64,000 nt of DNA from Xanthomarina spongicola (lineage in GTDB: Bacteria > Bacteroidota > Bacteroidia > Flavobacteriales > Flavobacteriaceae). The notes under the pieces were generated by a model. It ran no database searches and was not told where the DNA came from. It saw only the letters and a list, made by a program, of their open reading frames with translations. Where the stretch lies: NCBI RefSeq assembly GCF_003148645.1, contig NZ_QGGP01000001.1, forward strand, positions 744,001-808,000, given 5' to 3'. Position numbers and translations under genes: made by a program. Shown here one piece after another: positions 49,772 through 64,000 of this stretch (position 1 is the stretch's first letter; every line of letters begins with the position of its first letter).

Positions 49772-49896
49772 GTGTTTCTTTTGCCTTAAATAGAAGGCAA
49801 AAGTCAGGCTTTTCGCTATATCTTTTCTTTTTTGTTATGCAGAGTATGTCGAAGCATCTATCAAAAAGAAAAGGATGCCACTACAATCCTTAACAC
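49772..49896 (-). ncRNA. Structured flavobacterial intergenic element, copy A
   Basis: Read on the minus strand: a P1 half GTGTT (49896-49892), GTTAAGGATT, a long stem of TTTTC/TTTTT against its complement with a GCAT/ATGC tip, then GATATAGCGAAAAGCCTGAC, a hairpin CTTTTGCCTT / AAGGCAAAAG (49803-49794 and 49787-49778) and the P1 partner AACAC (49776-49772). The same ordered motifs occur at 57959-58032. I recall this sort of element as common between genes in Flavobacteriaceae; whether it is an RNA or a DNA repeat is open. Confidence 0.6.
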
Positions 49897-49981
49897 AAAG
49901 ACCTTATCAAATAGAAAAGGTTTTTTATTTAAAAAATTTGTAATTTGTTTGACTATAAAAATTAATCCAAACCAAATACAT

Positions 49982-53768: not shown

Positions 53769-53862
53769 GAAAAAATGTCAGATTGCTATTGCTAGAGGAG
53801 TAGAATGTTACTGCTTTAGCATTTTTTTAAAGAGGTTGCAATCAGACAAATTTTTCCTCTTG
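53769..53862 (-). promoter_or_regulatory. SAM-II-like riboswitch and expression platform of metK
   Basis: On the minus strand P1 is AGAGG (53860-53856) / CCTCT (53835-53831), enclosing AATTTGTCTGATTGCAA. Then AAAAAAATGCTAAAGCAG follows, with CTG in the loop able to pair to the final CAG, the pseudoknot layout of SAM-II. The loop (53856-53838) is also complementary to a downstream stretch (53786-53769), giving an alternative fold. Confidence 0.72.
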
Positions 53863-53874
53863 ATATTTGAATTG

Positions 53875-53963: not shown

Positions 53964-53994
53964 CATATATAAAAGTTCATTAATATTATTGATT

Positions 53995-54110
53995 GTTATC
54001 ACGAAAGGCAGAGGGAATAGACCCTGTGAAGCCTTAGCAACCCTTTAATTATAAAGAAGGTGCTAAATTCTAACCTATATTGAGTATTTTTCAAAATTAG
54101 GACAGATAAC
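53995..54110 (+). promoter_or_regulatory. SAM-I (S-box) riboswitch of the metH operon
   Basis: P1 GTTATC (53995-54000) / GATAAC (54105-54110). Between them lie the S-box landmarks in order: ACGAAAGGCAGAGGGA, ATAGACCCTGTGAAGCC, TTAGCAACCC, then AAGGTGCTAAATTCTAACC. These match the SAM-I core of Bacteroidota metH leaders. It represses when SAM is high; the platform is the start-codon hairpin at 54139-54170. Confidence 0.92.
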
Positions 54111-54138
54111 CACAAGTATTTTCAACTTACTTTCCTGA

Positions 54139-61853: not shown

Positions 61854-61923
61854 AAAAGACCTCGATTTTTTTGTAAAAATAACTAATTAGTAACGTTTTT
61901 AATTAAAAAATAGTCTTTACATT

Positions 61924-61952
61924 TTGTTTTTTCATTTTATTGTCTACTTTAG
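61924..61952 (+). promoter_or_regulatory. Promoter of the pheA operon leader
   Basis: TTG (61924-61926), 18-bp spacer, TACTTTAG (61945-61952), one mismatch from consensus. Transcription would start near 61958, only 5 nt before the leader ATG. Confidence 0.6.
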
Positions 61953-61962
61953 CACCCACATT

Positions 61963-62043
61963 ATGAAAGCAACATCAAATTTTGCATATTACAATTGGTA
62001 TTATTTCTTTTTTAACAGAAGAAACGAGACGTTGTATATGTAA
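61963..62043 (+). CDS. Aromatic-rich leader peptide of the pheA operon
   Basis: 26 residues: MKATSNFAYYNWYYFFFNRR then NETLYM. Ten of 26 are Phe, Tyr or Trp, with YYNWYYFFF at positions 9-17. It precedes a terminator and then pheA, the expected design of a ribosome-mediated attenuator that senses charged tRNA-Phe/Tyr. Confidence 0.85.
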   Translation: MKATSNFAYYNWYYFFFNRRNETLYM

Positions 62044-62076
62044 TTTTAATAAATAATATTAATACATATTAAAAAA

Positions 62077-62106
62077 AAGTCTCGATGAAAATCGGGACTT
62101 TTTTTT
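62077..62106 (+). terminator. Attenuator terminator of the pheA operon
   Basis: AAGTCTCGAT / ATCGGGACTT (62077-62086 and 62091-62100, one G-T pair) with loop GAAA and seven T. GTCTCG (62079-62084) is also the exact complement of CGAGAC (62025-62030) inside the leader peptide, which gives the antiterminator. Confidence 0.88.
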
Positions 62107-62134
62107 GTTTAAAACTTAAATAAGAGAAATAATT

Positions 62135-62962
62135 TTGATAAAAACAATAGCCATTCAAGGAGTAAAAGGATCTTTCCATCATATTGTATCTCAGCAATAT
62201 TTTGGAAACCAATTAAAAGTTAAAGAATGTTTAACTTTTGATGAAGCAGTACAAAGCTTGATTATAGGAAAAACAGATGCTGTTGTAATGGCTTTAGAAA
62301 ACTCGATTGCAGGATCTATAATTCCTAATTACGCTTTAATTGATAATCATAATTTACATATTGTTGGCGAGCATTATTTAGATGTGCAACATCAATTAAT
62401 GGCCTTGCCAAATCAGGATATTAAAGATATTGTTGAGGTTTATTCACATCCAATGGCTTTGTTGCAATGTAAAGAATTCTTTAAAAAACAGCCACATATT
62501 AAACTTATTGAAGATAAAGATACAGCCGAAGTAGCGCAACGTATTCAAGACAAAAATTTAAAGGGAGTTGCAGCTATAGCAAGTAAATTAGCTTCCCAAT
62601 TATTCGAGTTAAACATTATTTCTGAAAGTATTCAAACCATAAAGCATAACGAAACACGCTTTGTAATTGTAAAAAGAGAAAATCATGAAATACCTGAAAC
62701 AGAAATAAACAAGGCTTCTATAAAATTTGAATTGGAACATAAAAGAGGCAGTCTGGCAGCCATGTTAAATGTTATGAGCGATTGCAAACTGAATTTAACG
62801 AAAATCCAATCCTTACCAAAAATAGAAACTCCTTGGAAATATGCTTTTTTCGTAGATGTAACTTTTAACGATTTTGAAGATTATAAAAAAGCAAAATCCA
62901 TCATGGAAATCATGACCGAAGAATTTAAAATATTAGGCGAATATAAAAATACAAAACAATGA
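62135..62962 (+). CDS. pheA: Prephenate dehydratase with ACT domain
   Basis: 275 residues from a TTG at 62135; no ATG or GTG is available nearby upstream. IAIQGVKGSFHHIVSQQYFG, MALENSIAGSI, the TRF motif in NETRFVIVKRE and a C-terminal ACT domain (about 195-270) with RGSLAAML and KIQSLP, the Phe-binding GALV and ESRP equivalents. Converts prephenate to phenylpyruvate, feedback inhibited by Phe. TTG and the attenuator make two layers of restraint. Confidence 0.92.
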   Translation: MIKTIAIQGVKGSFHHIVSQQYFGNQLKVKECLTFDEAVQSLIIGKTDAVVMALENSIAGSIIPNYALIDNHNLHIVGEHYLDVQHQLMALPNQDIKDIVEVYSHPMALLQCKEFFKKQPHIKLIEDKDTAEVAQRIQDKNLKGVAAIASKLASQLFELNIISESIQTIKHNETRFVIVKRENHEIPETEINKASIKFELEHKRGSLAAMLNVMSDCKLNLTKIQSLPKIETPWKYAFFVDVTFNDFEDYKKAKSIMEIMTEEFKILGEYKNTKQ

Positions 62963-64000
62963 TTGAAGCAGCACTAAGATTGCAAACCATTGAAGAATAC
63001 TACTTTTCGAAAAAGCTTCGAGAAGTTAGATTGCTACAAGCAAACGGAAAACCAATCATTAATTTAGGGATTGGAAGTCCAGATTTACAGCCTCCACAAA
63101 AAGTAATAACAACTTTATGTAATAGTTTTAACGATGCTCAAGCTAACCAGTATCAAAGCTATCAAGGGTTGCCAGAATTACGAGAAGCTATGGTGTCTTT
63201 TTATAGAGATCAATTTCAAGTTAATTTAAGTCCTACTACAGAAGTACTGCCTTTAATGGGAAGTAAGGAAGGCATTATGCATGTTTCTATGGCTTTTTTA
63301 AACCTAGGAGACCAAGTGTTAATTCCAAATCCAGGATATCCAACTTATGCTTCAGTAACAAATTTGGTTGGAGCAGAACCGGTTTTTTATAAATTATATG
63401 AAGAGAATAATTGGTTGCCAGATTTAGAAAATCTTGAAAAACAAGATTTGTCTAAAGTAAAAATTATGTGGATAAATTATCCACACATGCCAACAGGAGC
63501 AGTTGCTACTGAAGCTTTCTTTATAAGGCTTGTCGCTTTTGCTAAAAGGCATCAAATTTTGATTATAAACGATAATCCTTATGGCTTTATTTTGAATGAT
63601 TCGCCAAGAAGTATTTTGAGTATTCCAGAAGCAAAAGATGTTTGTTTAGAATTGAATTCTTTAAGTAAAACCTTTAATATGTCTGGTTGGAGAATTGGTA
63701 TGGTTTTAGGAAAATCAGATTATATAAATCATATTTTAAAAGTGAAAAGCAACATGGATTCTGGCATGTTTTATGGTGTTCAAAAAGGCGCTATTGAAGC
63801 TTTAAAATGTTCAAAATTATGGTATGTAAGCTTGAACAATGTCTATGAAGAAAGACGAAAGCTAATTTGGCAATTAGCTGATAGTTTAAACTGTACTTAC
63901 GACAAAAATGCAACAGGTTTGTTTGTTTGGGCAAAAATTCCAGCTTTTTTAAAATCGGAAGAGTTTATCGATTTATTATTAAAAGAGCATGACATTTTTA
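62959..64000 (+). CDS. Class I/II aminotransferase of the aromatic operon (3' end outside window)
   Basis: 347 residues so far. ATG at 62959 overlaps the pheA stop (ATGA). NLGIGSPDLQPP, NPGYPTYASVTNLVGAEPV, NDNPYGFIL and the PLP lysine in LNSLSKTFNMSGWRIGM are aspartate aminotransferase-fold features. In this position it should transaminate phenylpyruvate, hydroxyphenylpyruvate or prephenate. The end and further genes of the operon are cut off. Confidence 0.9.
   Translation, partial: MIEAALRLQTIEEYYFSKKLREVRLLQANGKPIINLGIGSPDLQPPQKVITTLCNSFNDAQANQYQSYQGLPELREAMVSFYRDQFQVNLSPTTEVLPLMGSKEGIMHVSMAFLNLGDQVLIPNPGYPTYASVTNLVGAEPVFYKLYEENNWLPDLENLEKQDLSKVKIMWINYPHMPTGAVATEAFFIRLVAFAKRHQILIINDNPYGFILNDSPRSILSIPEAKDVCLELNSLSKTFNMSGWRIGMVLGKSDYINHILKVKSNMDSGMFYGVQKGAIEALKCSKLWYVSLNNVYEERRKLIWQLADSLNCTYDKNATGLFVWAKIPAFLKSEEFIDLLLKEHDIF

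Follow-up and report, generated by a model that had tools for sequence, protein, structure and literature searches.

A putative leader-peptide attenuator upstream of pheA in Xanthomarina spongicola and its relatives in the Bacteroidia

Just upstream of pheA in Xanthomarina spongicola lies a short leader which, judged from its sequence and from comparison with relatives, very probably acts as a ribosome-mediated transcription attenuator of a pheA-aminotransferase-tyrA-DAHP synthase operon, reading the supply of Phe and Tyr. The leader was found in a stretch of 64,000 nucleotides of the genome (the window), to which all coordinates refer unless a contig is named. We infer that its short frame is translated, with RNA polymerase starting shortly upstream and a ribosome initiating at the ATG in co-ordination with it. 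When charged tRNA-Phe or tRNA-Tyr (possibly also tRNA-Trp) is scarce, the ribosome would stall in the run YYNWYYFFF with its leading edge at or before the motif CGAGAC, and CGAGAC, being free, would pair with the nascent GTCTCG, block the terminator and allow read-through into pheA. With these amino acids in ample supply, the ribosome would instead reach the stop codon and cover CGAGAC, GTCTCG would fold into the terminator, and transcription would end at the T-run.

The leader frame (61963–62043, plus strand, as are all parts of the locus described here) encodes the 26-residue peptide MKATSNFAYYNWYYFFFNRRNETLYM, from an ATG at 61963 to a TAA at 62041–62043; a program-made list of ORFs puts its start at a TTG at 61924, and the frames of relatives open with ATG, a start codon that our scan preferred or required. 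Codons 9–17 (61987–62013) specify Tyr Tyr Asn Trp Tyr Tyr Phe Phe Phe, with the last Phe codon at 62011–62013, and the core of region 2, CGAGAC (62025–62030), begins 14 nt after the first base of that codon (62011). Region 3, GTCTCGAT (62079–62086), is the first arm of an intrinsic terminator (the 3:4 helix and T-run, 62079–62106) that continues with the loop GAAA, the second arm ATCGGGAC (62091–62098) and eight T (62099–62106); an A-run at 62071–62078 lengthens the stem. GTCTCG within region 3 is at the same time the 3' arm of the antiterminator. An earlier note on this DNA, made from the letters alone, had described the frame with its YYNWYYFFF run, a terminator between frame and pheA and the complementarity of CGAGAC to GTCTCG in the first terminator arm; the frame is correct base for base, the terminator is present, with its A-run in front, and the complementarity is confirmed in the sequence. 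Folding of positions 61945–62134 gave a z-score of −4.22, and none of 200 shuffles was equally stable.

Upstream of the frame there is a possible sigma-A promoter of Bacteroidota type (61923–61952), composed of TTTG at 61923–61926, which we take to be the upstream promoter element of Bacteroidota, a spacer of 18 nt and TACTTTAG at 61945–61952. The latter, a promoter element predicted from sequence, has five of the six fixed bases of TAnnTTTG, a consensus taken from PMC9723704. Of 194 Flavobacteriaceae leaders, 191 have a TAnnTTTG-like site (five or six of six fixed bases) no more than 60 nt ahead of the ATG, a raw count without a shuffle baseline; 133 of these sites carry TTG 14–26 nt further upstream and 177 lie 3–24 nt before the ATG. 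Because of this closeness to the ATG, the frame probably begins near the 5' end of the transcript.

Downstream of the terminator, pheA (62135–62962, TTG start) encodes prephenate dehydratase (PF00800, E 4.7e-54; 190.3 bits against NF008865, under its cut-off of 219) and is followed by a class I/II aminotransferase gene (62959–64000) that continues past the window end (C1:808000). On the same contig C1, matches to tyrA (PF02153) at C1:808151 and to DAHP synthase (PF00793) at C1:809022 lie on the same strand within 4 kb. We infer that the four genes form one operon, and their pathway fits the aromatic codons of the leader, the amino acids of which the leader would sense. Upstream of the leader stands gldA (TIGR03522), divergently oriented. 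A window-wide scan for amino-acid leaders returned only the pheA leader and one unconvincing Leu-rich case. Among the 80 named loci listed, a set from which very near records may be missing, PheA is closest to that of Lacinutrix himadriensis and to that of an uncultured Flavobacteriaceae bacterium, at 81% in both cases.

The earlier note had made its reading depend on whether close relatives keep the aromatic run and the CGAGAC/GTCTCG pairing. To score the run, we took an ATG frame of 8–45 amino acids with at least five F/Y/W in nine residues, within 500 nt upstream of pheA. The run is kept: such a frame precedes pheA in 207 of 213 Flavobacteriaceae regions, compared with 111 of 1065 dinucleotide shuffles, and in 42 of 63 regions from other families of the class, compared with 17 of 315 shuffles. 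PheA was found in 268 of 299 genomes of the family, and the 213 regions consist of 130 from the best-scoring of these 268 matching genomes (minus G015, in which the element, found by the RNA model described below, adjoins the pheA start upstream), 76 from 80 lower-scoring genomes of our own choice, four of which had no PheA match, and 7 from the class draw; genome G127 is counted twice (L089, L143). An aromatic run was scored in 129 of the first 130 regions, the scored frame of L006 being spurious. The frame lies within 500 nt in 79 of the 80 named loci and at 539 nt in the remaining one.

The six Flavobacteriaceae misses are of several kinds. In L018 the leader is present, 646 nt upstream of pheA; in L006 a contig edge falls 128 nt from pheA and the 3' part of the cut-off frame is visible; no frame was seen in L169, L189 and L220 within the region read upstream of pheA, nor in L203 in the only 385 nt of upstream sequence there. 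In L018, L021 and L286 (Gelidibacter sp.), an extra stretch of about 100 to several hundred bases, which by eye holds short inverted repeats, intervenes between attenuator and pheA, and for this reason the leader is 306–646 nt upstream. At the other extreme, the terminator T-run in several relatives, L013, L028 and L035 among them, starts only about 8–16 nt before the pheA start codon, so near that the hairpin may affect pheA translation as well.

Among the other families of the class the frame is unevenly distributed: it was found in 9 of 9 regions of family f39, 5 of 5 of f32, 3 of 6 of f16 and none of 8 of f13, the last eight being part of the 21 of 63 regions that lack it. One leader in these families (L144, f4) seems doubtful, and a GTG-started frame (L157, f35) was left out of the count. 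With the same criterion, none of 28 loci from other classes of the phylum had the frame; these loci are the best-scoring of 95 matching genomes and bear nine family labels, with 12 loci from one family.

The frame alone is unremarkable, because about 5–10% of shuffled regions give such frames and the criterion is also met upstream of 5 of 48 other ORFs of the window (at least 150 aa). Phe and Tyr codons are, moreover, common in AT-rich DNA, and these figures are what would speak for a constitutive terminator or small RNA next to a chance, untranslated frame. What is remarkable is the conservation upstream of pheA together with the covarying pairing described below. The conservation and its taxon pattern, as well as the spacing to the last aromatic codon, argue against a chance frame; a covarying antiterminator would be pointless in a constitutive terminator; and the terminator is not gldA's own, since gldA is divergent. 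We consider a chance frame scarcely credible.

Several features of the frame indicate what has been conserved in the attenuator that we propose. In the 194 Flavobacteriaceae leaders, each of the three codons ahead of the last aromatic one is itself aromatic in 192 cases, and in the 38 leaders of other families the corresponding numbers are 36, 36 and 37, counts which show the compactness of the cluster and are no proof of selection, because the leaders were preselected for an aromatic cluster. The codons used in the run vary among TTT, TTC, TAT, TAC and TGG, and so do the peptides, as exemplified by YYNWYYFFF, YFNNWFYFFF, YFWNGFYFYFFF, YFYGFYFYF and YYYFFFYWF; because the peptides differ, the conserved feature is aromatic coding and not one peptide. 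Codon choice nevertheless looks position-specific, with TTC at −2 in 145 of 194 leaders and TTT at −1 in 134 and at 0 in 158, a bias that perhaps avoids a long U-run or serves pairing with the following AAAAGAAA.

An aromatic peptide adjoining a terminator could also be an arrest peptide of the TnaC kind, in which the nascent chain stalls the ribosome with a free aromatic amino acid bound and which senses the free amino acid and not tRNA charging; on the RNA side, control by a ribosome stalled in this way would look alike. Arrest peptides keep specific residues, and in a biosynthetic operon their logic would work the wrong way round. These two points speak against such a peptide here, as does the variability of the leader peptide, in which what is kept is aromatic codons ending 12–14 nt before region 2. 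An arrest peptide is, thus, very unlikely.

The pairing that would make the leader a switch was analysed in an alignment (A2) of 73 of 131 non-redundant leaders, all from Flavobacteriaceae; because the 58 omitted leaders all come from the lower-scoring set, the covariation counts apply to this subset. The antiterminator CGAGAC:GTCTCG has standard pairs in 94.7% of 438 cells, and in five of its six pairs both partners have changed (40 cells), so that here, too, the relatives agree with the earlier note. Its covariation score was reached by none of 500 shuffles, and slid versions of the helix were at most 45.2% paired; the outermost pair is the weakest, being unpaired in 15 of the 73 leaders. 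In the terminator helix 97.8% of 511 cells are paired and all seven pairs covary. Terminator and antiterminator use the same middle strand, and the strands change jointly, from CGAGAC/GTCTCG to CGGGAC/GTCCCG, CGGAAC/GTTCCG, CAGGAC/GTCCTG and TAGGAT/ATCCTG. By the criterion used, a terminator was found with 232 of 249 leaders, and the 17 without were dropped before the simulations described below.

A further test used a fixed offset, so that region 2 was not picked by pairing. In Flavobacteriaceae, with the offset set to 14, pairing is complete over the six bases in 83 of 194 leaders (mean 52 and maximum 65 with swapped partners), and 69.5% of cells are paired compared with 64.6% for swapped partners (maximum 68.4%). 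For the other families the offset was 13, and 5 of 38 leaders show complete pairing, compared with a swapped mean of 1.6 and a maximum of 5; the evidence for the antiterminator is weaker there than in Flavobacteriaceae. An RNA model built from alignment A2 matched 36 of 60 relatives at E ≤0.01, and in genomes with a located pheA every match of at least 50 bits lies just upstream of pheA (about 520 nt upstream in G013).

In Flavobacteriaceae the distance between the last aromatic codon and the antiterminator varies little. Measured from the first base of that codon to the start of region 2, which was identified here through its pairing with the terminator arm, it is 12–14 nt in 155 of 188 leaders (14 nt in 91 of them), and in 37 leaders of other families the offset is 10 to 21 nt; these numbers cover 188 of 194 and 37 of 38 leaders, the rest having no helix of at least 5. 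Spacing taken from listed motifs in 128 leaders came to 14 nt for 90 of them and to 13 nt for 28. By contrast, counted from the first base of the stop codon, region 2 may start anywhere between −27 and +8. Keeping in mind that a bacterial ribosome covers roughly 12 bases beyond the first base of the A-site codon, a ribosome at the last aromatic codon just spares region 2, and one at the stop codon covers region 2 in most leaders.

This relation was modelled by placing a ribosome at each codon and folding the RNA from the first free base (A-site+13) to the end of region 3. Averaged over the 194 Flavobacteriaceae leaders, the probability that region 3 is paired upstream was 0.92–0.93 while the ribosome stood at earlier codons and 0.89 when it stood at the last aromatic codon; one codon further it fell to 0.53, after two codons to 0.13, and at the stop to 0.09. 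In the 38 leaders with 17 other family labels it was 0.84 at the last aromatic codon, followed by 0.64 and 0.36, then 0.23 at the stop. The window leader itself gave 0.99 with the ribosome at the last Phe codon and 0.60 one codon later, and no more than 0.05 from then on. The stalled value exceeded the stop value by more than 0.2 in 188 of 194 leaders (the reverse held in 1) and in 38 of 38. When the segment between ribosome and region 3 was shuffled, the stalled value dropped from 0.89 to 0.48 in the Flavobacteriaceae and from 0.84 to 0.59 in the other families, and at most 1 of 20 such shuffles reached the observed value in 166 of 194 Flavobacteriaceae leaders and 22 of 38 leaders of other families. 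Varying the assumed footprint between +11 and +17 shifts the switch point by about a codon in either direction, but the switch itself remains. We interpret the ribosome spacing and the in silico ribosomes as supporting the stall/stop switch that the earlier note had read from this one leader.

To that reading a protector helix may be added. In the whole-leader MFE fold, region 1 (61984–61995) pairs with 62031–62041, as a possible 1:2 helix, and across 121 leaders the score of this helix was 16.4, compared with 14.0 (maximum 14.6 of 20) when partners were swapped between genomes. Before region 3 exists, region 2 is paired with a mean probability of 0.73, which exceeds 0.5 in 178 of 194 leaders. 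Based on this early pairing and the MFE helix, a protector hairpin that would favour termination of untranslated leaders is possible, with modest comparative support. When the naked leader is folded as far as region 3, that region, too, remains paired, with a mean probability of 0.74.

Two further explanations leave the ribosome out of transcription control altogether or place its effect elsewhere. Leader genes 11–14 bp before genes peak in Bacteroidetes, according to PMC4833913, which would suit a frame working at the level of translation, by reinitiation or coupling into pheA. The leader stop is, however, 91 nt from pheA in the window and roughly 50 to 300 nt in relatives, and an intrinsic terminator with a covarying stem sits between frame and pheA; translational action is highly improbable. 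A metabolite-binding riboswitch or a T-box is suggested by the position before pheA alone. No Rfam family reached its gathering score in the leader, and a permissive Rfam search of it yielded seven weak matches far below gathering scores, none of them a riboswitch or T-box, so that we regard this explanation as next to negligible. Rfam riboswitches do occur elsewhere in the window, where SAM-II before metK (53806–53865, minus strand) and SAM-I before a split metH (53993–54112, plus strand) stand back to back, the split metH parts being followed by a methylenetetrahydrofolate reductase gene. A Flavo-1 RNA (49798–49898, minus strand) lies opposite the start of an ORF at 49832.

Other leaders were seen in the same genome. 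Upstream of hisG (L161, contig C2 near 518.6 kb) there is an ATG frame with His codons, MAFIQLHHHHFHSGTQAS, and a terminator, AACCCGTTTGA/TCAAACGGGTT. Its simulated profile runs from 0.59 at the last His codon to 0.35 and 0.02, a modelled drop after the last regulatory codon similar to that of the pheA leader; the maximum of the profile is only 0.61, and it is low at early codons. Before a chorismate-binding gene, probably trpE (L163, contig C5 near 83.8 kb), we found a Trp frame, MKLNLNHTWWWCFRNSNS, with the terminator AGGCTTGTC/GACAAGCCT. With the arm chosen, simulation of the trp leader gave a flat profile, 0.44 falling to 0.25; at a guess, by eye, its antiterminator may be TTCGTGAA/TTCACGA, pairing into the terminator loop and 3' arm. 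Before ilvD, the stretch that was read showed no obvious leader.

The trp, his and phe leader attenuators of enterobacteria are classic. The enterobacterial pheA leader (RF01859, Phe_leader) likewise has a Phe-rich peptide and alternative antiterminator and terminator hairpins before pheA, whereas here Tyr and Trp codons are mixed with Phe, the predicted promoter is of Bacteroidota type, and tyrA and DAHP synthase lie downstream. Against RF01859 the leader scored 20.4 bits (E 0.35), and the gathering score of 55 bits was not reached. In E. coli and Salmonella, the trp and his attenuators share with it a leader frame with regulatory codons and the mutually exclusive helices 1:2, 2:3 and 3:4; in contrast to them, other amino acids are read here, region 2 starts anywhere from 27 nt before to 8 nt after the first base of the stop codon, and the evidence for a 1:2 helix is modest. 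Enterobacterial ilv-type multivalent leaders likewise hold codons for several products of one pathway, branched-chain there and aromatic here.

PMC1183508 models the E. coli and Salmonella systems for trp and his, and the 2010 survey PMC2965389 states that, to its authors' knowledge, no leader-peptide attenuators had been shown outside Proteobacteria and Actinobacteria, the atypical ermC leader aside, and itself adds Firmicutes. PMC7366714 mentions Bacteroides thetaiotaomicron sORFs reminiscent of leader peptides, and PMC6429828 mentions Phe- and Tyr-rich candidate uORFs, predicted to be regulatory, at shikimate-metabolism genes, from a search of five bacterial genomes; these uORFs resemble the leader here in composition but are not, in the text consulted, placed in Bacteroidota. 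A precedent in flavobacteria is PMC9723704 (2021), the main text of which reports strong clues of leader-peptide attenuation upstream of amino-acid operons in Flavobacterium psychrophilum, with its pheA and hisG 5' elements present in other genera. The F. psychrophilum pheA element thus concerns the same gene in the same family, so that the idea put forward in the earlier note is not quite new for this group; the text consulted gives, unlike the present analysis, no peptide, antiterminator, covariation or spread beyond Flavobacteriaceae. A literature search, with subscription papers mostly outside its reach, found no description of the leader peptide, a covarying antiterminator or class-wide spread. 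The kind of mechanism and the flavobacterial clues to attenuation were already known, and the leader is a well-supported further case of that mechanism.

Taken across the class, we lean, with some reserve, towards viewing the leader as an old switch of the Bacteroidia, a pooled sensor of Phe and Tyr (and perhaps Trp) in which the feature conserved best is how far the antiterminator lies from the last aromatic codon, a spacing matched to the ribosome's leading edge. If this is true, its class-wide spread implies that ribosome and RNA polymerase are co-ordinated on leader RNAs in a group without Shine-Dalgarno sequences, in which, to our knowledge, such co-ordination has not been established. 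The leader would then offer a natural means of probing whether translation and transcription advance together in Bacteroidia, and its ruler-like spacing across diverged leaders would amount to a natural measurement of the position of the ribosome's leading edge. It would add a gene of 26 codons, a length that usual annotation passes over, could become the basis of a new Rfam family, and would explain how the aromatic pathway is controlled in Bacteroidia.
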